DNA of 64,000 nt from a virus, in IMG/VR virus record IMGVR_UViG_3300043777_000086, positions 1 through 64,000 of that record; one strand, 5' to 3'. The translations under genes and the position numbers were made by a program. The first letter of the stretch is position 1, and each line of letters begins with the position of its first letter. Of the stretch, positions 1-35,700 are shown in pieces. The notes under the pieces are model-generated. The model made no database searches and was not told where the DNA came from. It saw only the letters and a list, made by a program, of their open reading frames with translations.

Positions 1-487
1 GCGCGGGAATCTAGCAGCGTCGTGGCGCGGGAATCTAGCCGCGTCGTGGCGCGGGAATCTAGCAGCGTCGAGGCGTGGGAATCTAGCAGCGTCGAGGCGT
101 GGGAATCTAGCCGCGTCGAGGCGCGGGAATCTAGCAGCGTCGTGGCGCGGGAATCTAGCCGCGTCGAGGCGTGGGGATCTAGCCGCGTCGTGGCGCGGGA
201 ATCTAGCAGCGTCGAGGCGTGGGAATCTAGCAGCGTCGAGGCGCGGGAATCTAGCCGCGTCGAGGCGCGGGAATCTAGCAGCGTCGTGGCGCGGGAATCT
301 AGCAGCGTCGTGGCGCGGGAATCTAGCCGCGTCGTGGCGTGGGAATCTAGCAGCGTCGAGGCGCGGGAATCTAGCAGCGTCGTGGCGCGGGAATCTAGCC
401 GCGTCGTGGCGCGGGAATCTAGCAGCGTCGAGGCGTGGGAATCTAGCAGCGTCGAGGCGTGGGAATCTAGCCGCGTCGAGGCGCGGG
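1..487 (+). repeat. 24-bp coding minisatellite, 20 units
   Basis: Twenty contiguous 24-bp units run from 1 to 480 with no spacers. Apart from one G-for-A change in unit 8, units differ at only three sites: CGG/TGG (Arg/Trp), AGC/CGC (Ser/Arg) and GTG/GAG (Val/Glu). Units 1-5 recur exactly as units 16-20, so 1-127 and 361-487 are identical, which points to recent segmental duplication. Confidence 0.95.
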
Positions 488-996
488 CTATATCTTGCGT
501 TCATCAGAAGTCTTCGGTGCCTACTCAGGTTTACGGGCAGGCGAGCTGCTACCATCACGACGGCTACGCGGAGCCGGTGAGTAAATCCGATCGCTGTTTT
601 ATCATCCCGGTTCGCCGATTAACGGGAAATGACGGCTGGCTGGAAGAGAACGGGATCGACCCTAGCGACGGCTATGTGGTGCTATTCAAGCGCGTCTCTA
701 AAGACCTTCTCACGCAAGAGGGCACGGAGAACGAAACAAGCTGGCCCATCGGCGAGATGGTCACGCACGCAAACTGGAACCCGATTACAGCCGAGTGCGG
801 GCGCGGAAAATTTCATGCCTGCTCCCGCCCGTACTTCGCCGATGAATTCCGCGATACCATAGGCGATCGTTACATTGCGCTCAAGATCGCCGCGGCAGAT
901 CTACATGCGTGGCCGAATCCCGAGTACCCGCATAAGATCGCGTTCAGGACTGGTCTGGTACTGCACGAATGCGACCGATGGGGAGACAAAATCTAG
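1..996 (+). CDS. Octapeptide-repeat protein with globular C-terminal domain, 5' partial
   Basis: The frame is open at the left edge, so the true start lies outside the window; 331 codons are visible. The first 160 residues are twenty in-frame copies of an 8-residue unit A-[R/W]-E-S-S-[S/R]-V-[V/E], as expected for a beta-solenoid stalk. The remaining ~170 residues form an unrelated domain containing W-N-P-I-T-A-E-C-G-R-G-K-F-H and DLHAWPNPEYPHKIAFR. I recall this kind of domain at the end of similar repeat proteins in uncultured phages (DUF7666-like), but I am not sure of the name. It may be a surface or binding protein; the function is unknown. The stop codon overlaps the ribosome-binding site of the next gene. 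Confidence 0.7.
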   Translation, partial: ARESSSVVARESSRVVARESSSVEAWESSSVEAWESSRVEARESSSVVARESSRVEAWGSSRVVARESSSVEAWESSSVEARESSRVEARESSSVVARESSSVVARESSRVVAWESSSVEARESSSVVARESSRVVARESSSVEAWESSSVEAWESSRVEARAISCVHQKSSVPTQVYGQASCYHHDGYAEPVSKSDRCFIIPVRRLTGNDGWLEENGIDPSDGYVVLFKRVSKDLLTQEGTENETSWPIGEMVTHANWNPITAECGRGKFHACSRPYFADEFRDTIGDRYIALKIAAADLHAWPNPEYPHKIAFRTGLVLHECDRWGDKI

Positions 997-1004
997 GAGA
1001 TTTT

Positions 1005-8753: not shown

Positions 8754-10413
8754 AGGACCAAAGACTGAGATTGTCGCAGCTACAGCGGCGACACCTGCCG
8801 CGGCGGCGCCGGCCTCGGTCCCGGATATCACCAACAAGACATGGTTCCGCGGGGTGCCCCCTGAGGACAAATTAAACCGCATGTACGGGTTCTCGAAGGC
8901 GATCTGCAACGCGGCATTCATCAGCCCTGTTGTGCGAGGCGACGAAGCCTCGGTTTTTTATTTGGTTTCAATGGCGGAGGATCTCGGGGCGCAATGGACG
9001 CACGGGCTTCGGTCGATCTACCCGCTCGTGAAGCGCGGCAAGGATGGTGATGGGGATCAGATCCGTGCCGGCATCCAGGGAGACCTGGCGCTGGCGCTGC
9101 TCCTTGGGCGTAAGTTCAAGGTCAAAATCAAGGAATCCACGGATGAGATAGCTACGGTCTGGATGCAGCGTCCGGACGAAACGATGGAGTTCGAGGACAG
9201 CTTCACGATCGCCGAGGCGCAGAAGTTGGGACTCACTAGCAAGCCTAACTGGGGCTACAAAAAAGACATGCTGCGCTGGAGGGCGATCATGCGAGTAGCG
9301 CGCATTGTGGCAGCGGATATATTGGGTGGCATGTACCTCCCTGACGAAATCGAGGGTCTCCCCGAGGAGCGCGGCGACGCGGGTAACGGGGCCTTCCGGG
9401 ACGAGGCTCAGCGCCAGCTTGATAACCCCTATACCGTTGGCCGCAAGACTACGGATGCGCCTGCTGCCGAGGTCGTAGTCGCGGTTAAGCCTTCCGAGAG
9501 TCCGAAGTCGGACGCGCCCGCAGAGCCCGAAAAGCGAGACAATACCAGCGCTACCCCGAGACCCGCCGAGACCCGCAAACCCAGCGCCCCTCCTGAGGTG
9601 CGTACCCCCAAGGCTCAGGACGACAAGGAGCCACCCCTATTCACGGAGACCGTACCGCCGGAGAAGATCAGCGATCCGGAGCCTGCGCCTGCCGCAGCGG
9701 AGCCGGGCGAGCCAGCCAAGGCCGACAAGTCCAAGTCTCCGATCCCCATCGACGGCAAGAAGACAGTCAAGGACATTCTGCTCGAGATGACGGACCTCCT
9801 GCCGACCGTGTCTCCCGAGACGCTTACGCGTAAGACCTTCCCGGAGTTCCTGCGCGGCTTCATGGGGCGCGATCTGAAGGGGCTCAAGAAGGAGCAGGTG
9901 GACCCGGCGCTAGCGATCCTTCCGCCCCTGCTGCGCGATTACAAGCCTCAGTTCCTACGCGACCCGCATGGGGCGGGCGTCATGTGCGGCGCCGGCTGGA
10001 ACAAGTTCGTCCGGTGGTTCGATGAATCCTGGCCGGAGGACTGCAAGCAACTGGCGATCTCGATCGGCGTCGAACGCTATTCGGACAGCGGCGGGTTTGA
10101 TCTCGCGGAGTTTCTGACGGACCCGGTAGACATCAAGAATATGAACCCCTCCGAGCTTCGGACGTTCATGCAGGTGCTCTCAAAGACCCGTGAGGCGATC
10201 CTGCTTAAGGACGCAGCAACGAAGTACGGCGTGTCGATGCTCGCGATTATGAACTCCTGGGATCTCGACATTTTGAATGCGGACGCCGCTACGGTTGAGG
10301 CGTGCCTGAAGAAATCCCTAATCGAAGGGATTGAAGGCGCTGCCGAGCCGGTGACGGCGGGTGTAGATCCGAATTCGGATGAAGACGATTTGGGTTTGTT
10401 CGATGAAGAGTAA
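8740..10413 (+). CDS. RecT-like single-strand annealing protein with long C-terminal extension
   Basis: 557 aa; AAAAGGAG precedes the ATG. Residues ~45-210 match RecT-type annealing proteins: an opening helix (SKAICNAAFISPVV), the L-G-A-Q-W-T-H-G-L-R-S-I-Y segment, and K-K-D-M-L-R-W-R-A-I-M-R-V-A-R followed by G-G-M-Y-L-P-D-E-I. It would anneal single strands produced by the exonuclease at 11866. Residues ~215-330 are a Pro/Ala/Glu-rich linker. Residues ~335-540 form a second, unrecognised domain that ordinary RecT (~270-330 aa) lacks. Two copies of the palindrome lie inside (9501 and 10368). Confidence 0.8.
   Translation: MATPEGPKTEIVAATAATPAAAAPASVPDITNKTWFRGVPPEDKLNRMYGFSKAICNAAFISPVVRGDEASVFYLVSMAEDLGAQWTHGLRSIYPLVKRGKDGDGDQIRAGIQGDLALALLLGRKFKVKIKESTDEIATVWMQRPDETMEFEDSFTIAEAQKLGLTSKPNWGYKKDMLRWRAIMRVARIVAADILGGMYLPDEIEGLPEERGDAGNGAFRDEAQRQLDNPYTVGRKTTDAPAAEVVVAVKPSESPKSDAPAEPEKRDNTSATPRPAETRKPSAPPEVRTPKAQDDKEPPLFTETVPPEKISDPEPAPAAAEPGEPAKADKSKSPIPIDGKKTVKDILLEMTDLLPTVSPETLTRKTFPEFLRGFMGRDLKGLKKEQVDPALAILPPLLRDYKPQFLRDPHGAGVMCGAGWNKFVRWFDESWPEDCKQLAISIGVERYSDSGGFDLAEFLTDPVDIKNMNPSELRTFMQVLSKTREAILLKDAATKYGVSMLAIMNSWDLDILNADAATVEACLKKSLIEGIEGAAEPVTAGVDPNSDEDDLGLFDEE
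9501..9512. promoter_or_regulatory. Palindrome TCCGA-NN-TCGGA, copy 2
   Basis: Centre AG, flanked by G and C. It lies in the linker part of the RecT-like gene, in a different codon phase from copy 1. Confidence 0.6.
10368..10379. promoter_or_regulatory. Palindrome TCCGA-NN-TCGGA, copy 3
   Basis: Centre AT, so the 12-mer is a perfect palindrome; with flanks A and T, symmetry extends to 14 bp. It lies at the 3' end of the RecT-like gene. Confidence 0.65.
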
Positions 10414-13782: not shown

Positions 13783-14696
13783 CCCTCAGGTCTCTCAAGC
13801 CCGGCGACTCGCTCGACCAGGTCGTACTGGTTTCGGAATGCCAAGCTAAGCGCACCAAGAAGGACACCGCCTATTGGTCGCTCGTAGTGCGAGATAAGAC
13901 CGCCTCGCTCGACGCGAAGTGTTGGAGCCCGCCGGCGAACACCGAAATCCCGATCGCCGGGAACTTCGTGCGGCTGATCGGCACAGTCGAGGATTATCGC
14001 GGTGAGCCGCAGTTGAACGTGACGGATTTGACCTACGCTGACCCGGCCACCGTACAGATGGCGGACTTCCTTCCATGCTCGGAGCGGCCCGCCGAGGAGA
14101 TGCACCGCGAACTAGTAGAGAAAGTCCGAACCCGGATACAGTCGGAGCCGCTCAAGGCTATGCTCATCGATATGCTCACCGATGAGAAAATCAAGTCGGT
14201 GTTATTGCGGTCGCCGGCGGCCGCTAGAAATCACCATGCAAAATTGGGTGGACTCTTGGAGCACATCCTCTCGCTCTGGTGGCTCTCTGAATCCGTAGCG
14301 ATGCACTACGACAAGCTCATCAACCGGGATCTGCTGCTGGCTTACTGTGTGGTCCACGATTTTGGCAAAACTAAGGAACTCAGCGTAGACCTAGGTTTCT
14401 CCTACACGCCGATCGGGGACCTCGTGGGCCACGTGATCATCGGGGCGCATTTGCTATGGCACTACACGCGGAAGCACAAGCTCCCGGTGGATCTAGAGCT
14501 GAAACTCTTACATGGCGTGAGCGGGCATCACGGTGAGTTTGGGGATATCAAACCGCAGACGATGGAACTGCAAGTCTTTCATTGGCTCGATCAGCTTGAC
14601 GCGAGCGTGGAGGCTATCCGCGCGGCGCTGGCTGAGGATACCACCGGACTGCCGGCTGTCATGGTTCCCATGCTCCGAAGGGAGTTTTACCGATGA
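13779..14696 (+). CDS. OB-fold/HD phosphohydrolase, YhaM-like 3'-5' exonuclease
   Basis: 305 aa; ATGA joint with the membrane protein. Residues 1-90 look like an OB fold (V-L-V-S-E-C-Q-A-K-R-T-K-K-D-T-A-Y-W and later FVRLIGTVEDYRGEPQL). Residues ~150-255 are an HD domain with His162, H193-D194 (CVVHDFGKT), His218 and H250-H251. This order matches YhaM-type 3'-5' exoribonucleases, so degradation or processing of RNA or DNA ends is likely. Confidence 0.75.
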   Translation: MTLRSLKPGDSLDQVVLVSECQAKRTKKDTAYWSLVVRDKTASLDAKCWSPPANTEIPIAGNFVRLIGTVEDYRGEPQLNVTDLTYADPATVQMADFLPCSERPAEEMHRELVEKVRTRIQSEPLKAMLIDMLTDEKIKSVLLRSPAAARNHHAKLGGLLEHILSLWWLSESVAMHYDKLINRDLLLAYCVVHDFGKTKELSVDLGFSYTPIGDLVGHVIIGAHLLWHYTRKHKLPVDLELKLLHGVSGHHGEFGDIKPQTMELQVFHWLDQLDASVEAIRAALAEDTTGLPAVMVPMLRREFYR

Positions 14697-18989: not shown

Positions 18990-19524
18990 CGACAATCACC
19001 AGGTCTTTGCGCGGAGCTTTGGACCCCAAGCTGTCGCTGGCTTCGACCGCGAATGGAACCGTCCCCGGCTGCGTCGGCGTACCGGTGATCACCCCACTGT
19101 GCGTGTCGAGGCTCAGCCCTGTGGGTAATGAACCCCCCAGCCTGGCGAGTGTGATCGTGAATGGACCCTGCCCGCCGGCGACCATGATCGCCGCGTTGTA
19201 GGCATCCCCCACCTTAGCGTTCGGCAGCTTGGTGGTCATGATCTCCATGTGCTCGACCGGATGCGGGTGCGGAGGAAGCGGCTGCGCCGGGACCTTGAGC
19301 ACATCACCCGGAACCGACACAAAGATTTCCCCGCCCTTGATCTCGGTTGACTTGGTGCTGAATACTTCCATCAGCCCCAGCGGGACTGGTTCGATCGTGG
19401 TGGGCGCTTCTGGATCTTCCGGGGGCGGCTCGATCTTGGCTTTGGCCGCCAGCTCCGTAAGTGTGTAATGCCCCGGCGGGACCGTGTAATTCAGCCCGTC
19501 AATCGTGATCTGCACTTCTTTCAT
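18979..19524 (-). CDS. Putative Ig-domain protein, 181 aa
   Basis: ATGA joint with the gene upstream. The N-terminal 35 residues and a Pro-rich region lead to a putative Ig fold in the last 90 residues (K-V-G-D-A-Y-N-A-A-I, G-L-S-L-D-T-H-S-G-V-I-T-G-T-P). Such domains are frequent in Acidobacteria and in phage tail and decoration proteins. There is no signal peptide. Possibly a virion decoration protein. Confidence 0.6.
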   Translation of the reverse strand: MKEVQITIDGLNYTVPPGHYTLTELAAKAKIEPPPEDPEAPTTIEPVPLGLMEVFSTKSTEIKGGEIFVSVPGDVLKVPAQPLPPHPHPVEHMEIMTTKLPNAKVGDAYNAAIMVAGGQGPFTITLARLGGSLPTGLSLDTHSGVITGTPTQPGTVPFAVEASDSLGSKAPRKDLVIVVIP

Positions 19525-20393: not shown

Positions 20394-20416
20394 GGGAATT
20401 ATATACATGAGTACAG
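20394..20416 (+). repeat. TnpB element end (right end), inverted repeat
   Basis: It begins GGGAATTATATAC and ends AGTACAG. It overlaps the last codons of tnpB and, in TnpB systems, would mark the 3' end of the guide RNA scaffold. Confidence 0.65.
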
Positions 20417-21571
20417 ATTTTGAAGGCTTACGCCCGCAGCGCTCATCCCGAGCGCAGAAATTCCTAGTTGCAAGATGTTAAGCGCGGCGTTGTGATCGCG
20501 GCCAAGTTCAAGGCCGCAGTTAGGACAAGAATGGACGCGTTGCGAGAGTTTTTTAGAAACAGGCTCTCGGCAATTACTACAACGCTGCGAGGTGCCGCGT
20601 GGATTGACTGCAACAACATGCACACCAGCGTATTCTGCTTTGTATGCGAGTTGAAACAGCACGATTCCCCATGCGGCATCCATGATTGATTTATTAAGGC
20701 CGCGCTTCTGCGCGACATTCTTACCAGGGTTCTCGACCGTACCACTGGCTGATCGAGTCATGTTTGTGATCGCCAGATCTTCGTGAACGATGAGATCGTA
20801 AGCAGCCACGAGTTCCTTGGATTTGTGATGCAGGTAGTTAAGCCGCGCATTGGCGGCTTTCTGATGAGCGCGCCTGAGAGCCTCACGTGCTCTGGCCCGA
20901 TTCCGCGAGCCCCGCTTCTTGGTCGCTAACGCTCGGTTCTTTTCAGCGATGTTGTCTTCATAGTGCTTGGTCCAGCGCGGATTGTCGATCACTTGACCGT
21001 TGCTCAGCGTCGCGAGCGTGGTCAGCTCGACATCGATGGCGGTGGCGCGCGATATAACGCGCTTGGGCGGCGCTTCACCGATGTCGCAGACAACCGACGC
21101 TGTCCAGCGCTTCCCTTCGCGCTTAACGGTACATACCTTGGCTTTGCCGTTAATCAGCCGGCCGCCCTTTGCGCGAATGTCCCCGACATTGGGGATCTTG
21201 ATCGAGCGAGCGCGCCATGTCGGCAGGCTAAACGCGAAGGAGTCGTACCGCGCCCGCGCTCTGAATCTAGGGAATCCGGGTTTTTGACCTGATTTGCATC
21301 GACGAAAGAAAGCCCTGAAAGCGAGATCAACTCGCCTCAGCGGGTCGCGCATGATGTCGCACGCCATCCATCGAAAGCGTTCGTCTTGGCGAAGTTCGGT
21401 CAGTTCCACCTGCTGGTCATAGTACGAGACTGACTTTTTATCGTACTTGTACGCGTTGATCCTGTGTTCTAGACACGCGTTGTACGTCTCGCAATTGTCC
21501 GCGAGAATGCGTTCCAGCATAGCGGTTTGGCTCGCGTTGGGCTTCAGGCGGAACTGAAAAGCTCTAAGCAT
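20399..21571 (-). CDS. tnpB: TnpB RNA-guided nuclease, catalytically intact
   Basis: 390 aa. RuvC residues are present: Asp180 (A-I-D-V-E-L), Glu264 (I-V-H-E-D-L) and Asp359 (R-D-H-N-A-A). The four-Cys zinc finger is at Cys331/334 and Cys349/352 (TSQRCSNC; SCPNCG). The N-terminus (LRAFQFRLKPNASQTAML) is the typical TnpB opening. TnpB cuts DNA guided by an RNA made from the 3' end of its own element, which keeps or spreads the element. The length is normal, with no frameshift. No SD is seen; the start is inside or just after the left end of the element. Confidence 0.93.
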   Translation of the reverse strand: MLRAFQFRLKPNASQTAMLERILADNCETYNACLEHRINAYKYDKKSVSYYDQQVELTELRQDERFRWMACDIMRDPLRRVDLAFRAFFRRCKSGQKPGFPRFRARARYDSFAFSLPTWRARSIKIPNVGDIRAKGGRLINGKAKVCTVKREGKRWTASVVCDIGEAPPKRVISRATAIDVELTTLATLSNGQVIDNPRWTKHYEDNIAEKNRALATKKRGSRNRARAREALRRAHQKAANARLNYLHHKSKELVAAYDLIVHEDLAITNMTRSASGTVENPGKNVAQKRGLNKSIMDAAWGIVLFQLAYKAEYAGVHVVAVNPRGTSQRCSNCREPVSKKLSQRVHSCPNCGLELGRDHNAALNILQLGISALGMSAAGVSLQNLYSCI

Positions 21572-21622: not shown

Positions 21623-21805
21623 CTACTTCCCCAAAATCATCGGCACGAATTCCATACCGAACAGCCAGAAAGCTAGCCCGGCTGAAATGAACGTAGGGTA
21701 ATAAGGCTGCGGAGCAGACCACCACCACCTCGACCCCACACCCAGAATAAAGCATCCAAGCGCGAAGCAGTACGCTAGCATCGAAAGAACAGGAGGTTGG
21801 ACCAT
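21623..21805 (-). CDS. Small two-helix membrane protein, 60 aa
   Basis: The ATG at 21805 has AAGGAG 6 nt upstream. Two hydrophobic helices (LSMLAYCFALGCFILGV and FISAGLAFWLFGM) flank a polar W-W-W-S loop. Size and topology would suit a holin or a small inner-membrane factor, but there is no family match. It heads the minus-strand group that tnpB interrupts. Confidence 0.6.
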   Translation of the reverse strand: MVQPPVLSMLAYCFALGCFILGVGSRWWWSAPQPYYPTFISAGLAFWLFGMEFVPMILGK

Positions 21806-21865: not shown

Positions 21866-21895
21866 TTGACGGCCACGTTTATATGGGTTTATGAT
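21866..21895 (+). promoter_or_regulatory. Strong sigma-70-type promoter
   Basis: TTGACG at 21866-21871, 18-nt spacer, TATGAT at 21890-21895; five of six matches in both boxes. It would start RNA near 21902, right at the structured RNA below. Confidence 0.65.
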
Positions 21896-21901
21896 GTAGG
21901 A

Positions 21902-22030
21902 GTTTTCTCTTGAGTTTGGCAGGTGAGCGGGGTTTGGTGCTCCCCGCTCAGTCTGCCAAGAGAAGACGGTCAGCGATTGGCTCAGAATCGCGGACGTCCC
22001 GCCGGTGCTCTTTTAGAGTACCCCAGACGC
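21902..22030 (+). ncRNA. Highly structured untranslated RNA or leader
   Basis: There is no credible reading frame. The main stem joins 21905-21910, 21917-21922 and 21924-21932 with 21942-21950, 21953-21958 and 21959-21964: 6 + 6 + 9 bp, with a 6-nt bulge TGAGTT and a 1x2 internal loop. Two more stems follow: 21973-21978 with 21986-21991 (6 bp) and 22005-22011 with 22015-22021 (7 bp, one G-T). It lies in the 295-bp divergent gap and could be a small regulatory RNA or the leader of the replication operon. Confidence 0.55.
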
Positions 22031-22076
22031 CCCCTCCTGTACAATACTTGACCACAAAAATTTCAGGTTAAATTTG

Positions 22077-22088
22077 TCCGAGTTCGGA
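22077..22088. promoter_or_regulatory. Palindrome TCCGA-NN-TCGGA, copy 5
   Basis: Centre GT, flanked by G and C. It is not in a coding region and lies 12 nt before the HNH start, next to its SD, so a bound protein could block transcription or initiation here. Confidence 0.65.
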
Positions 22089-22100
22089 CATGGAGGCTCT

Positions 22101-22739
22101 ATGCCCACGGAAGATGACATTGACGAACGGATACGCGAGCAGCTATCGAAGCGCGCGGATATATTCCGTCTTTCTGATTCAGAAAACCCATTCATGAAGG
22201 CCGCTAAGTTGATATGCCTAGTGGATGAACTTTTGGATTTTTACAATGAGACAGTGCGTGAACTATGGAAACTTGGATACAACCAGTTTCCAGAGGCGGA
22301 CGGCGTTTCTGGATTTGACCTCACTGAAAGAGGTGGTTGTATGTCGTTTTCATCTAAAGACATCCTAGGGATGCTCGCTGATGGTCCTAAGAAACAAGCG
22401 TTTATGTGGCTTGAGAATGAAGTAGAAGCTGAAAGACGGCGCCGGGCGGACGCTAATCCTAAGCGACAAAAACCGCCGATTAATTGGCGTCGGCGCATCG
22501 CTAGGAGGTTGGGTTATGAGCCACAGGAGTGGGTGTGTGTCTACTGCCGGAAGTCTGGTGACTGTGAGCTTGGGCCTGACGGGCGTCGTTGGCATGTGGA
22601 CCACATGTACCCTCGCGTTCATGGTGGTGATGATAAAAAAGACAATAAAGCCCTATCCTGCGCTAGTTGCAACCTTAGTAAAAATTCCAGGACCGCTACG
22701 GAATTCCTGGCGGGAGACAAGAGGGAGGTTGTCCAATGA
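22101..22739 (+). CDS. HNH endonuclease, 212 aa
   Basis: The ATG at 22101 is chosen for GGAGG at 22092; a TTG at 22074 would translate the palindrome. Residues ~1-130 are helical with an Arg-rich middle. Residues ~140-205 form a zinc-bound HNH: V-C-V-Y-C-R-K-S-G-D-C, W-H-V-D-H-M-Y-P-R, C-A-S-C-N-L-S-K-N-S-R. It may be a homing nuclease or a replication- or recombination-linked nuclease. It is coupled to the next gene. Confidence 0.78.
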   Translation: MPTEDDIDERIREQLSKRADIFRLSDSENPFMKAAKLICLVDELLDFYNETVRELWKLGYNQFPEADGVSGFDLTERGGCMSFSSKDILGMLADGPKKQAFMWLENEVEAERRRRADANPKRQKPPINWRRRIARRLGYEPQEWVCVYCRKSGDCELGPDGRRWHVDHMYPRVHGGDDKKDNKALSCASCNLSKNSRTATEFLAGDKREVVQ

Positions 22740-23893
22740 ACAACCTTCCATACTACCGTCTCTATCCTAAGGACTTCGACACCGACGAGAATGTTCGCCT
22801 TATGAGTATGTGCGAAAAGGGGCTTTACATCGCCCTCTTGAACCATTCCTGGGTGAATGGATCAGTCCCAAACGACATCACTAAGATCGCCCGGATCGCC
22901 GGGGAATCGGTACGAGTTGTGAAAAAATGTTGGGTTCAAGTTTCAAGATGCTTCAATGAAAATGCAAGTGGTGGTCTAGTCAACCGAAGGCTTGAAGATG
23001 AACGTATCTTAGCGGAAACAAAGGGAGAATCTTATTCCGAGAATGCTAAAAAGCGTTGGGAAAAACCATGCAATGGCATTGCACGCGCGTCTGAGTCTGA
23101 ATCTGACTCTAGTTCTCTCTCTTCTGAAACTCAAACTACAAACCAAGAAAAAACTTCTTCGCGCGCACGAGGAGTTTTTGTTGCCTTTGAGGATTTTCTA
23201 CACCAATGGCGCCGGCATCGCGGGTTCAAAAAACCCAACAAGCCGATCCTCGAGCGGGCGGCACAAAAGTGGGGTTCAGTCGAGATCACCGAAGATGAGC
23301 TAGCAGAAGCGCTCGACGGGTATTATGGTTCGGATTGGGCGAAACGCGAGGGGTATCCGATGCTGGGGTTTGTGAAAGACCCTCACTCCTGGCGTGCAGG
23401 CGGGCTTATTGAAAATTCACCCCCACCGCAGCGCACGCCCGCGCGCCCTGCGATCGAAGTGCCGGTGCCGAGGGGTAACCCTACCCCGGAAGTATCCGAT
23501 GCGCCTAGCGACGCCCTGCCGCTACGGGATCATCCCGCAGAATGGAACCGGATGGTACCGGCCGCCAAGTATGAATGGGGGCGGTACGCCCCGATCGAAG
23601 CGCTCCGGTTGTGTCAATACCGCGGCGATGACTTTGCGGAAAAATTTGATGAGGTTTGCGAGCTAGCTCAGGCGATTCATGTGGCGCGCGGCAAGGAGGT
23701 GGGATGGTTAACGCTTCCCTGGATCCTCAAAGTCGGGGATGAGAACCGACCGAACTGGTACAAACTTCTGACAGAGATGCGTTGGATGGCCACGCCCGCC
23801 GGTAAGCAACCCCCACCAGACCCCATCGCCTCAGCCCGAGAAATGCTACGTAAACGTAAAGAAGAAAGGGAGTTAAAAGAACGCAGTGTATAA
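22736..23893 (+). CDS. DUF1376 replication-initiation-like protein
   Basis: 385 aa; ATGA joint with the HNH gene. The opening (P-Y-Y-R-L-Y-P-K-D-F, then M-C-E-K-G-L-Y-I-A-L-L-N-H-S-W) is the DUF1376 winged-helix domain seen in phage replication initiator or helicase-loader proteins. A Ser/Glu/Thr linker and a second domain (E-D-F-L-H-Q-W-R-R-H-R-G ... DGYYGSDW) follow. With the DnaA-like protein and DnaB downstream it probably opens the origin and loads the helicase. Confidence 0.75.
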   Translation: MNNLPYYRLYPKDFDTDENVRLMSMCEKGLYIALLNHSWVNGSVPNDITKIARIAGESVRVVKKCWVQVSRCFNENASGGLVNRRLEDERILAETKGESYSENAKKRWEKPCNGIARASESESDSSSLSSETQTTNQEKTSSRARGVFVAFEDFLHQWRRHRGFKKPNKPILERAAQKWGSVEITEDELAEALDGYYGSDWAKREGYPMLGFVKDPHSWRAGGLIENSPPPQRTPARPAIEVPVPRGNPTPEVSDAPSDALPLRDHPAEWNRMVPAAKYEWGRYAPIEALRLCQYRGDDFAEKFDEVCELAQAIHVARGKEVGWLTLPWILKVGDENRPNWYKLLTEMRWMATPAGKQPPPDPIASAREMLRKRKEERELKERSV

Positions 23894-24851: not shown

Positions 24852-25074
24852 ACCAACCCCAATACCGGGACCCGCCACGAAGGATAACCCCATTACCTTC
24901 ATCATGTTTCCGGAGCGCTGCCTTGGTTGCAAGGCGGCCCGTATCGGAATCCAGGAAGGCCGATGTTATTTCGCGTGCAAGACCGTGGTCCAGCACATCA
25001 AGCTAACCGGACGCCTGCACGTTAAGCGCAGCCACGAGTGCTTCGTCAGGCAGCGCGAGGGGGCCACGGCATGA
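24844..25074 (+). CDS. Hypothetical protein with four Cys, 76 aa
   Basis: Starts inside the end of the preceding gene. It contains the pair R-C-L-G-C-K and later G-R-C-Y-F-A-C-K, an arrangement that could bind zinc, and a basic tail. The function is unknown. It ends in an ATGA joint. Confidence 0.55.
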   Translation: MTEPTPIPGPATKDNPITFIMFPERCLGCKAARIGIQEGRCYFACKTVVQHIKLTGRLHVKRSHECFVRQREGATA

Positions 25075-25400
25075 GCGCGCCGATCCTGCCGCCGCGGATC
25101 CGGAATGTGATCCAGGCCCACGCCACGGACCACCACACCACAGTCGAGGAGATCCTATCCTCCAGCCAGATGAAACACACCTCCATGGCCCGCCGGCACG
25201 CCTGCCACTCCCTGAAGCGAATGGGGTTCTCTGAGCCCGAGATAGGGCGGTTCCTCCGGAAGGACCATAGCACAGTCCACTACGCGCTCACGCAGCCGCT
25301 GCTGAACCTGGAGGGTAAGGTGGTCGGAGCCCCGCTACGGCCGCAGCACAGGCCCGCGGACGTGCCCGTACCCGACCTCAGCGGGGAGTGGGCGGTATGA
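25071..25400 (+). CDS. DnaA domain IV-like DNA-binding protein
   Basis: 109 aa. Residues ~37-75 (S-M-A-R-R-H-A-C-H-S-L-K-R-M-G, then E-I-G-R-F-L-R-K-D-H-S-T-V-H-Y-A-L) match the DnaA C-terminal DnaA-box-binding helices including the D-H-S-T-V signature. The AAA+ part of DnaA is absent. It lies directly before the helicase, so it may mark the phage origin or regulate transcription at DnaA-box-like sites. Confidence 0.8.
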   Translation: MSAPILPPRIRNVIQAHATDHHTTVEEILSSSQMKHTSMARRHACHSLKRMGFSEPEIGRFLRKDHSTVHYALTQPLLNLEGKVVGAPLRPQHRPADVPVPDLSGEWAV

Positions 25401-25675: not shown

Positions 25676-27073
25676 GTGAGCCAACCCCGCAAAACCCACC
25701 AGCAATCCGCCGGCGACCTCGCCCTAGAAAAAGGTATGCCCGCTTCCCCGGAGATCGAGAAGATCATCCTTGGGGCGATCCTCATCAAGCCCGACTGCTT
25801 CGATGCGGTCAGGGGCCTGCTTGAGCCAGACGACTTCAGCACGGAGCGCAATCGCCGCTGCTACCGCCGAATGATCGACCTCAAGGAGCGCGGCGACCCG
25901 ATTGACAGGGTTATGCTCATGGATGAGCTTCAGCGGCATGGGGAGTTGGAGTCGGTGGAACTCTCCTACCTCATGGAACTCGACACCGACGTTCCTGAGG
26001 TCGTTGAGACCTCGCTCGCGACGTACTGCCGGTCGGTTAAGGACCGCTCCGGGTTACGGCAGATCATCTTCGCCGCCCGCGACCTGGCGAAGCAGGCGCT
26101 CGATGCGGTGGATAACCCGCAGATTTTGGTCGAGCAGGCCACGAGTGCCCTCCAGGACATCGCGTCACGCGTGCAGGTGCAGCAGGATGACGGCGGGCAG
26201 ACGGTCATGCAGGCTATAGAATCCTTCCCCGGAGGGCTAACAGCGTTCCTGGAACCATCAAGCAGAAAGTTGGGTCTGCCGACCGGGTACGATCGCCTGG
26301 ATGATATGCTCGGCGGGCTACATGACGGGGAGTTGATCGTGATCGCCGGGAGGCCGTCCACCGGTAAGAGTTGCTTTATGAGCAACATCGTAGAGCACTT
26401 GACGATCAGGAAGCGAAAGTACCCGGCGATATTCTCGCTTGAGATGTCCGCCGAGTCAATCCTCACGAGGATGATGTGCTCCGCCGGCCACGTGGACCAC
26501 CAGAAGTTTCGCGCCGGATACCTCAACAAGGACGAGCGCTATAAGCTACAGGTGGCCGTCGACCAGCTATCCGATGTCCGACTTCGGATTTATGACAAGG
26601 CCGGGATTCGGGCTCCGGAGTTGATCTCAACGATACGCCGCCTTGCGCGGGACGAGGGCTGTCACGCTGTATTTATTGACTACCTGGGCCTGATCGGATC
26701 CCACGAAAAGACCGAGAACAAGAATCAAGAGGTCAGTCGGTTGACGCGCGACCTGAAGCTCCTGGCTATGGAGTGTGAGATTCCGATCGTACTGTTGTGC
26801 CAGCTATCCCGAGCGCCTGAGCGCCGAGGGGGGTCTTTTCGCCCAATTCTGTCCGACCTGAGGGATTCGGGATCGATCGAGCAAGACGCCGACACCGTGC
26901 TGTTTATCTTCAGATCCGAACTCTACAACCGGGATCGCGAGGACTACAAAGGCAAGGCGGAGATCATCATTAGCAAACAGAGGAATGGACCTGTGGGTTC
27001 CGTTCCGCTTAGGTTTCTATCGCACCTGATGCGGTTTGAGAACGCAAGTGCGGATGACGAGCCCGCCTCATGA
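25676..27073 (+). CDS. dnaB: Replicative DNA helicase, DnaB family
   Basis: 465 aa, normal for DnaB. The GTG start follows the previous TGA. The N-terminal domain (PASPEIEKIILGAILI) is followed by a RecA-like domain with Walker A G-R-P-S-T-G-K-S (225-232), a Walker B region in C-H-A-V-F-I-D-Y-L-G-L-I and the conserved V-L-L-C-Q-L-S-R with S-D-L-R-D-S-G-S-I-E-Q-D-A-D. It unwinds DNA at the phage fork; the probable loader is the DUF1376 protein. Confidence 0.93.
   Translation: MSQPRKTHQQSAGDLALEKGMPASPEIEKIILGAILIKPDCFDAVRGLLEPDDFSTERNRRCYRRMIDLKERGDPIDRVMLMDELQRHGELESVELSYLMELDTDVPEVVETSLATYCRSVKDRSGLRQIIFAARDLAKQALDAVDNPQILVEQATSALQDIASRVQVQQDDGGQTVMQAIESFPGGLTAFLEPSSRKLGLPTGYDRLDDMLGGLHDGELIVIAGRPSTGKSCFMSNIVEHLTIRKRKYPAIFSLEMSAESILTRMMCSAGHVDHQKFRAGYLNKDERYKLQVAVDQLSDVRLRIYDKAGIRAPELISTIRRLARDEGCHAVFIDYLGLIGSHEKTENKNQEVSRLTRDLKLLAMECEIPIVLLCQLSRAPERRGGSFRPILSDLRDSGSIEQDADTVLFIFRSELYNRDREDYKGKAEIIISKQRNGPVGSVPLRFLSHLMRFENASADDEPAS
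26577..26588. promoter_or_regulatory. Palindrome TCCGA-NN-TCGGA, copy 8
   Basis: Centre CT, flanked by G and T. Inside the helicase gene in another codon phase (V-R-L-R). Confidence 0.6.
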
Positions 27074-32729: not shown

Positions 32730-35700
32730 TTAGTTCGCCTGGACCGCCAGGAGCCTGGGGATCGTTACCGTAACTAACTGAAGATTAGCCACCGCGGTAG
32801 CCGACGAAGTCGAGGCAATCTTGATATTCATCACATTACCTCCGGAGCAATTAGTCATGCTGGTCGAGTTCAACTGAAGCGTTTGGGTGTATGGCGTGTT
32901 GGCTGTGGTGCCCGTCGTCGTGGTGGTGAATGTCTGTGCTGTCTGAAAGCTAGGGTCGTCTGTGGTGGTAGAGCATCCGATCGCCACCGAGAATGCGATC
33001 ACCTGGGATCCAGTTGCTGCGTTCTGCGTGTAGTTGATGCGGACGTAGGGGTCGGTGGCGGTATCCCAATCCGAGGGAACCTCGAGCTGGGATTGGGCGC
33101 TCTGGACGCTTGCGGCGAACTGAAGATAGCCGGTCTGTAGATTGGTGCCGGTGCGGCAAAACGGGGTCGGTGCCGCGCTGGTTGGTAGCGACATTCCAGC
33201 TCCCGCCGTGGTGTTATTGCAGTTGGCCGGGACGATCTGCTTGACGTCAGGGAAGTCTATGAAGGTTGGGGATCCAGCCCCCCCGGATAGCGCTACCTGC
33301 TTGGCTGTGCCCGCAGCGCTTGAGCTTATGGCGGACGTGCTTGATCCGTATACGATCCCTCCGCTGGTTACCGAGGCCGGAATCGTTAACCCATTAATGC
33401 TCGTCTGATTCGCAAGGGCGGCCGGTAGATCAGCAGTCCCGATCGACTCATAACCCGGTGCCGCGGTCGACCCGGTGTTATTCATCCAGGCTTTATGGGC
33501 ACCGGCCGTGGCGAGCGTGGCGGTGATCGCCCCGGTCGAAGAAGAGTTCGAAATAAACGTTCCGTCCCCGCTGAATGAAGTTACCGGGGCTCCACCGATC
33601 GTCCCGGTGGCGATCTGCCCGGTGATCGAGGGCGATCCCGTTGCTGTGCTCCACGTAGCCTGGAAGTCAATCGTATGGCTCGTAGTGGTGTTAATGCTGA
33701 ATGTGGCGGTGTTAGCTAAGGACCCATCCGCTGGCGTCAGGGATGTTACTGAAGACGGATTGATCTGGAATGCACAAACAGCAATCGCCGTTCCTCCGGA
33801 TCCCGTGGTACGCGTGGTGATCTGACAGCCAGGCGTATTCCAGGATCCGTTCGTGACGGCTGTGGAAGGTAGAGTCAGCGCGCCGGTAGTGGCGATCGAA
33901 GATCCGTCGATTAATAACGTGATCGTCAGCGTTCCGATGTAAGCGCTCGGGATCGATACAACCCCTCCGAAGTTCAGGCTAAGCGGAGTATTCGTGATCA
34001 GCGTATTAGCGGGGATAGTCTGGGCTCCTCCGCCGATTAGGGAGGTGGCGGAAGTTCCTGTGTCCGTAGCTGAGGAGGTCGCATTGAATACGCTCGCTCC
34101 GGCAGATCCACCTCCGCCACCCCCGCTCGATGCGATCGTGAGTCCATTGGAGGCCGGGGTGAATGTCACGTTCGTGCCAGCTACGGGGGGAGCATTTCCG
34201 AAATAATTGGTGCCGTCCGACCAGAACGCGATCGGCTGATAGGAGATCAAGACAGGGACGCTCGATGCCCCATTGAAGTTCTTGGAATTTAGGGAAACCG
34301 TAGCTACTGAACTGCCGATGGACTCGATCGCCCCGTAGTATCCGTTGGTCGGGGATCCGTACAGGGTAACAGAGCAGGGAGAAGCGCAGTTCATTACCAC
34401 TGTCTTTCCAAGGTCCCCGGCAACTAGAGTGTAGTTTCCGGTCTGGGTATTTTCAGCCCCGCTCACCGTGCAGGTTGATCCGAGGGTGCAGGTCTGTCCG
34501 TTTACCGTGGAGGAGCTATTTGCCAGGGCTGCGTTCGGTACCGCCTCGTATGTGACGGTATTCGAGGCGGTGACCACAGGGACCGTATTTGTGGATGGCG
34601 TCGCCCCGTAGCTTACCCCGTTGACTTTAGCCACAGTGGCCGCCAGGGATCCGGCCGAGCTTATCACATCTCCGGTCAACTGAAGAGTGAACCAGGCGAA
34701 TTGACTAACGTTCGAGGTCGGCGCCGGGAACAACATGATCTGATTGGCGGCTGGAACAGCATTAGGAGTCTCAAGTAAGACCGAAGTGGTTATCGTTGTG
34801 GGGCAGGTCCACCCAAACGAGTTGCTACCTGCGGTTGCCGCAGTGCCCTGCGCGCACTGCCATGCTCCGGCTACGCCGCTGCCGGATCCTGTCGTAACTG
34901 AGGAGGTGGTGGAGATTGGCTCCGTGGTCGAGACCGTGGTTCCGTTGTCGGTTATGGAGGTGTTCTCGCAAGCCGAAGAGCCATTAGATGCCTGAACAAC
35001 CCCCGCTGATCCCGAGGGGATACACCCAGATCCAGACCCGGTGTACTGCGGGATATTCAAAGTCCCGGAGGTGAACGTGGCTGCACCTGAAGTACCCGTG
35101 GTGGTGAGGGTGAATGGTGCCGTGAAAGCCCCGTTGCCGTTCAGGAACGTGGTCGTGGTTCCTGGGAGGATCGGAAGGAATCCGTGGGCGCTAGTGGAGG
35201 CGTTGTTCGTGGTGATATTGGTCAGTGCCAATGCCGCTTCCGCTAAAGTTCCCCCTCCGGCCGAGTTCTGATGGTTATGGTTGGCATTTACGAACGAGGC
35301 GATCGTAGGCGTGGTCAGGGTTTTATTGGTAAGGGTATCGGTTGTGCCGCGACCGACAAAAGTGTCCGTCGCATCCTGAATAGTCCAGACCCGATTCGCC
35401 GTAGGAGTGCCAGTCAGCTCAATCGAATCGGTACCAAAGGTCGACGACCCATAGAGATAGATATTTCTCCACGCAGTCGCCGCGGCGCCGAGGTCGAGGG
35501 TGGTCTGCGGTATCAGTGATAGGTTAATGGAAACAGAAGCCAAGTTCGATAGGGCTGTATTAGCACCACCCCCACCACTGCCGCAATCCGATCCGGTACC
35601 GGTGATCAAACCTGCGGAATTGGCGTGTAGACATTGGATTCCGGAAGCAACATCACTGAGCGTCAACCCCGAAGCCGTGGGGTTGGTCAACGTCTTGTTG

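Follow-up and report, generated by a model that had tools for sequence, protein, structure and literature searches.

In the window analysed here (64 kb from the start of a virus record of 106,152 bases), a promoter-like sequence is followed by a stretch that folds strongly as RNA, at the head of the replication genes of an uncultivated phage. Is this stretch a discrete small RNA, a leader with regulated readthrough or an RNA primer for replication, as a sequence-only reading had proposed, or does it have another role? That reading had placed it at the boundary between the two transcription directions, ahead of the replication genes, and the ORF layout bears this out. The cassette on the left runs leftward and contains a short membrane-type ORF, a TnpB-like gene and secreted-type proteins; the replication operon runs rightward and encodes an HNH nuclease, a DUF1376/primosomal protein, a DnaA-C-like protein, DnaB and a RusA-like ORF (RusA identified by eye). 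The DnaA-C-like product is a small protein (25038-25400) with a DnaA C-terminal DNA-binding domain. Feature coordinates are collected in Table 1.

Table 1. Features of the leader and its surroundings in the window, and the palindromes of related phages.
Feature	Position	Strand	Evidence or remarks
TnpB-like nuclease gene	20399-21571	-	Pfam Cas12f1-like_TNB + OrfB_IS605
Promoter-like TTGACG-18-TATGAT	21866..21895	+	promoter scan; same position relative to operon in five relatives
5'-terminal stem, 9+7+9 bp = 25 bp	21902..21967	+	fold; z about -5, 0/200-500 shuffles
Stem pairings	21902-21910/21959-21967; 21917-21923/21952-21958; 21924-21932/21942-21950		loop 21933-21941
Second hairpin, GCGATT/AATCGC, 7-nt loop	21973..21991	+	fold
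Third hairpin, GGTGCTCT/AGAGTACC	22004..22022	+	fold, sequence; without U-tract behind
CCUCC, can pair with Shine-Dalgarno GGAGG in whole-leader fold	22033..22037	+	fold; weak, could be chance
16-bp palindrome TGTCCGAGTTCGGACA, likely operator/protein-binding site	22075..22090	.	16 dispersed copies in genome
Shine-Dalgarno GGAGG of first replication-operon gene	22092..22096	+	sequence
HNH endonuclease gene, first of replication operon, ATG 22101	22101..22739	+	domain search, homology
DUF1376 / primosomal-type replication protein	22736..23893	+	domain search
DnaB replicative helicase, replication operon	25676..27073	+	domain search
G001 palindrome TGTCCGAA			21 sites
G002 palindromes CGTCCAGA/TGTCCAGA			13/12 sites
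G003 palindrome TGTCCAAG			6 sites
G005 palindrome AGTCCAGA			9 sites
G007 palindromes CGTCCAGA/TGTCCAGA			14/12 sites
G008 palindrome AGTCCAAC			28 sites
G011 palindrome AGTCTAAT			16 sites
G012/G013 palindrome AGTCCAGA			4 sites

Genomic Surroundings and Probable Host

A 60-codon membrane-type ORF with a strong AAGGAGT Shine-Dalgarno sequence (21623-21805, minus strand) runs leftward from the same intergenic region and has no Pfam match. The nearest relative of the neighbouring TnpB gene is found in a Bryobacterales genome (68% identity), and the host is probably an acidobacterium (Bryobacterales), a view that draws mainly on this gene and also on the signal-peptide proteins. Another TnpB relative (51%) lies at a different place in phage G005, and TnpB therefore moves within the clade. 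At its end the gene has GCGGGCGTAAGCCTTCAAAATCT, resembling the end of the guide-RNA scaffold in elements of this kind. We considered the hairpin as part of the TnpB element and rejected this, as the Bryobacterales copy is no longer similar once the gene ends. The contig starts (window 1-1000) and finishes inside one tandem repeat (GGCGCGGGAATCTAGCAGCGTCGT type), its two ends sharing a 57-bp terminal match, so that the genome is probably circular, unless the assembly broke in the repeat.

A Promoter-Like Sequence and a 5'-Terminal Stem

A promoter scan returned the hexamers, the 18-nt spacing and the coordinates exactly as first claimed, and the hexamers predict a transcript start at ~21902. 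By itself the TTGACG-18-TATGAT pattern is no better than chance and proves nothing, because a scan of 3 kb for this pattern gave 1 match, while shuffled sequence of the same length yields 2.2 matches on average.

The fold is a different matter. The three-part stem described in the sequence-only reading is real, but it is longer than had been thought, with 25 bp (9+7+9) rather than 21 bp (6+6+9), and the two further hairpins are present as well. The main stem, interrupted on its 5' side by a bulge of 6 nt (21911-21916), closed by a 9-nt loop and carrying a further bulge of 1 nt, has a folding energy of -39.6 kcal/mol (z -5.14), and the whole 165-nt region one of -68.2 kcal/mol (z -3.86). In neither case did any of 200 shuffled sequences fold as well. 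When every 100-nt window in the 106-kb genome is ranked, the leader comes 8th; among the genome windows listed it is the strongest outside any ORF, and no intergenic fold on the forward strand of this phage is stronger. When the intergenic windows of six genomes were compared by z, it came third, after one window of a related phage (G008) and one opposite-strand window of this phage. The reverse strand of the leader folds nearly as well (z -4.2), and the strand of the element must therefore come from its context.

That context places the leader in the 5' UTR of the HNH gene, whose GGAGG and ATG at 22101 follow with no terminator between. A terminator scan and inspection of the sequence found no U-tract behind any of the three hairpins. 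The claim that the region contains no reading frame was nearly right: a 53-codon TTG frame does exist at 21910-22071, but its AGGAG would sit upstream of the predicted transcript start.

For this region no match was obtained in Rfam (4227 families), either at the gathering threshold or in a relaxed search (E up to 5), in a tRNA/tmRNA scan, or by BLAST of the region against isolated phages. An exact 16-mer of the stem had five matches in viral contigs, none of them with the remainder of the stem.

The Same Layout with a Different Sequence in Related Phages

Searches with terminase and capsid identified a clade of uncultivated phages of ~83-106 kb, which was confirmed gene by gene. Single-protein scans with HNH and DnaB gave no relatives, a DUF1376 scan gave one distant contig (G006) that is outside the clade and lacks the palindrome described below, and a TerL search for prophage relatives in GTDB genomes gave none. 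Six records hold the replication operon: this phage (G000), G001, G002, G007, G008 and G011. For each record we took the first operon gene and sought the best promoter in the preceding 300 nt. The best promoter scored 10/12 in five records and 9/12, which is weak, in G011. A 10/12 promoter occurs within 300 nt of only 24 of the 562 ORFs (4.3%) of these genomes, giving P ~ 8e-7 for five of six, a value to be read with the fact that the relatives' promoters and operon starts were picked after the first case, G000, had been seen.

The predicted leaders are 199 (G000), 180 (G001), 128 (G002), 76 (G007), 119 (G008) and 99 nt (G011) long. Their fold z-scores over 100 nt, in the same order, are -4.7, -2.6, -1.7, -2.6, -4.9 and -2.1, those of G002, G007 and G011 being modest. 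All six leaders outdo their shuffled sequences, and all are among the best-folding 0.4-11% of 1,376 intergenic windows (Fisher combined P ~ 1.5e-5). In G001, too, the operon begins with an HNH homologue (48% over 94 aa) and, because these first operon genes are homologous, the leaders of G000 and G001 are in orthologous positions. The 5' end of the G001 leader can likewise be paired (GUUCCUUUC/GAGGGGAAC), and in G008 a perfect 12-bp stem opens the leader at about +1. In G007 and G011 the stem is not strictly terminal, as about 20 and about 35 nt, respectively, separate it from the predicted start.

BLAST between the clade leaders aligned the palindrome only, and no alignable copy of the G000 leader was found in any relative. 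A covariance model of the stem, run over the relatives and some host loci, recovered only its source and the reverse strand of its source; a match with E 0.06 upstream of the G008 ParB-like gene was treated as chance. The relatives thus appear to keep a stem at the same place with a different sequence, which suggests that the stem sequence is free to change. In G003 (L039), a strong intergenic hairpin, TATAAGCCCTTG/CAAGGGCTTAT, lies at 14080-14240 (record 34080-34240) immediately ahead of a homologue of the G000 gene at 101265-101975, and is another structured leader in the clade.

A Dispersed Palindrome with Phage-Specific Centres

Directly before the Shine-Dalgarno sequence of the HNH gene is a palindrome that recurs through the genome (TGTCCGARTTCGGACA; 16 copies in 106 kb at up to 3 mismatches). 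It is the commonest of 2,520 half-site permutations (mean 0.46), and in simulated genomes the best palindrome never exceeded 6 copies. The other copies in the window are at 9499, 17074, 26575, 27132, 36751 and 47089. Half of the copies in this genome (8/16) are no more than 60 nt away from a gene start, against 14% at random, and one, at 105877, falls in the first transcribed bases of a strong promoter.

When near-palindromic 16-mers were scanned without bias, a motif of the same type ranked first in the relatives, each with its own centre. The shared form is nGTCCRRN-NYYGGACn, and its own version was found in every clade member with enough sequence as well as in the isolate Tunturi_1, a cultivated acidobacterial phage. 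In the first 50 kb of Tunturi_1, AGTCCAAT ranks first with 7 sites, the site having the form AGTCCAAT-ATTGGACT. G009 and G014, fragments shorter than 10 kb, showed no clear palindrome family. The palindrome was also considered as a host motif, and this was rejected: four host-like genomes contained no match at up to 1 mismatch, and counts of the degenerate palindrome in the same four were not consistently above those of a reversed control.

Most of the clade encodes a ParB-like protein (PHROG 1033), which is only a candidate for the palindrome binder. In G008 (L064 19195-19330), the ParB-like gene is preceded by a TTGACA-17-TACAAT promoter and then by the clade palindrome, TGTCCAACGTTGTACA, at 19236, a placement that would resemble that of an autoregulated gene. 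ParB-like identity does not track palindrome likeness: G000 and G003 proteins are 59% identical with different palindrome centres, and those of G000 and G001 29% identical with the same centre.

Discussion

The recurrence of the layout in the relatives identifies the element, with good confidence, as the structured 5' leader of the replication operon. Our best guess at its function, and an evenly balanced one, is that its 5' stem protects the mRNA. RNA polymerase would start at ~21902, ahead of the genes for HNH nuclease, primosomal protein, DnaB and RusA, and the initial ~66 nt of the RNA would form the 25-bp stem, the lowest pairs of which would include the very 5' nucleotide. The stem could then serve as a generic 5'-end cap that blocks pyrophosphohydrolase and 5'-sensing ribonucleases, so that decay from the 5' end would be prevented and a long early mRNA stabilised. 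A DNA-binding protein of the phage, acting at the palindrome (22075-22090), probably sets expression as well. Stabilisation of mRNA by 5'-terminal stems that block access of RppH and RNase E is established in E. coli (PMC3997798), and RppH/RNase E-type decay may be the route in this host as well. The promoter and stem are present, the layout recurs in the relatives and the stem sequence varies freely; that the leader is transcribed and its stem acts as a cap is what we infer from them. A position that is kept while the sequence is lost fits a role that needs structure only. The leader (199 nt) is longer and more elaborate than a mere cap requires.

By analogy with the HK022 putRNA, which antiterminates without a protein factor and has related copies behind both early promoters, the nascent leader might act on RNA polymerase or recruit a factor so that distant terminators are read through, and hairpins immediately behind an early-type promoter that drives a long operon, at least two of them in both G000 and G008, would suit such a role. 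The putL element lies just downstream of PL and has two stem-loops in ~70 nt, and put sequences are conserved between copies and between phages (PMC9378689). Conserved sequence and recurrence at another early promoter would therefore be expected, and neither is seen: the genome contains one DNA match to the leader and no second covariance-model match on either strand, and the relatives offer no match in sequence or structure, all of which makes a put-like RNA unlikely. Of the proposed leader with regulated readthrough, the leader survives, given its position and the same layout in five relatives, while the readthrough is without direct support because, with no U-tract behind any hairpin, there is no intrinsic terminator to read through. 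The leader might instead be a translational switch, in which CCUCC:GGAGG pairing or a hairpin-binding protein governs how accessible the HNH gene's ribosome-binding site is. The whole-leader fold does pair CCUCC with the Shine-Dalgarno sequence, and in G008 that sequence sits in a hairpin loop, but the pairing is of 5 bp only, is not consistent in the relatives as judged by eye, and does not involve the main stem, and we regard a switch as improbable.

That both strands fold well, and that the dispersed clade palindrome lies in the same leader, would be expected if the inverted repeats were double-stranded DNA binding sites for a phage regulator and the RNA fold were incidental. The stem, however, is bulged and asymmetric, unlike the dispersed palindrome, and in every relative it occupies the transcribed side of the promoter, downstream of it, so that a DNA element is quite unlikely. 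A discrete phage small RNA, for which a compact independent fold with its own promoter would argue, is more doubtful still: no GC-rich hairpin followed by a U-tract ends it, the transcript would continue into the HNH gene, there is no Rfam family for it, and its sequence is not conserved in the relatives. The proposed primer, or part of a replication origin, is suggested by the location directly upstream of the replication genes and seems very improbable, since the GC skew shows no switch here (it reaches its extremes at 36.2 kb and at the end of the contig), a search for direct repeats found none, no DnaA boxes were seen by eye, and the operon itself encodes the proteins for initiation.

With the relatives, a hairpin that had stood alone becomes a trait conserved at the replication operon across a clade of soil phages with almost no experimental study, and a clear case of leader structure retained without sequence. 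The palindrome family with its phage-specific centres is the more interesting result, and these centres make repressor or partition specificity directly testable in probable acidobacterial phages, including the cultivated Tunturi_1. It is conceivable, if somewhat short of probable, that the leader belongs, as a single node, to a control network spanning the clade, in which a fast-diverging palindrome (about 6-28 per genome), read by a phage ParB/KorB-like or repressor protein, sets genome-wide expression and is joined to an operon leader selected for structure and not for sequence, all in uncultivated, probably acidobacterial phages.

Comparison with Known Systems

KorB operators of plasmid RK2 and the ParB-parS systems are dispersed palindromes. 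The clade shares with them dispersed palindromes, a ParB-like protein and one copy at the +1 region of the promoter of the G008 ParB-like gene, while the palindrome sequence here differs from both and its binding is putative. The palindromes suggest a system of dispersed operators of the same general kind as KorB operators or the stoperators of Cluster A mycobacteriophages. As with stoperators, which are sites for the phage repressor, many dispersed copies occur per genome and each phage has its own version of a shared motif. The stoperators are asymmetric 13-bp sites oriented with transcription (PMC6550527), whereas the site here is a 16-bp palindrome.

The leader, for its part, resembles the HK022 put RNA in having hairpins just downstream of an early-type phage promoter, and differs from it in lacking both a second genome copy and similarity between copies or relatives. 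It is closer to the 5' stem-loops of the ompA/papA type, whose removal shortens mRNA half-life. Its stem is longer and bulged, is accompanied by extra hairpins, and belongs to a probably acidobacterial phage. As in the ompA/papA type, however, the stem starts on, or right beside, the 5' nucleotide of a long mRNA (pairing from 21902, with the start predicted at ~21902), and its position is conserved while its sequence is apparently free. The element is thus a new instance of an already known kind.
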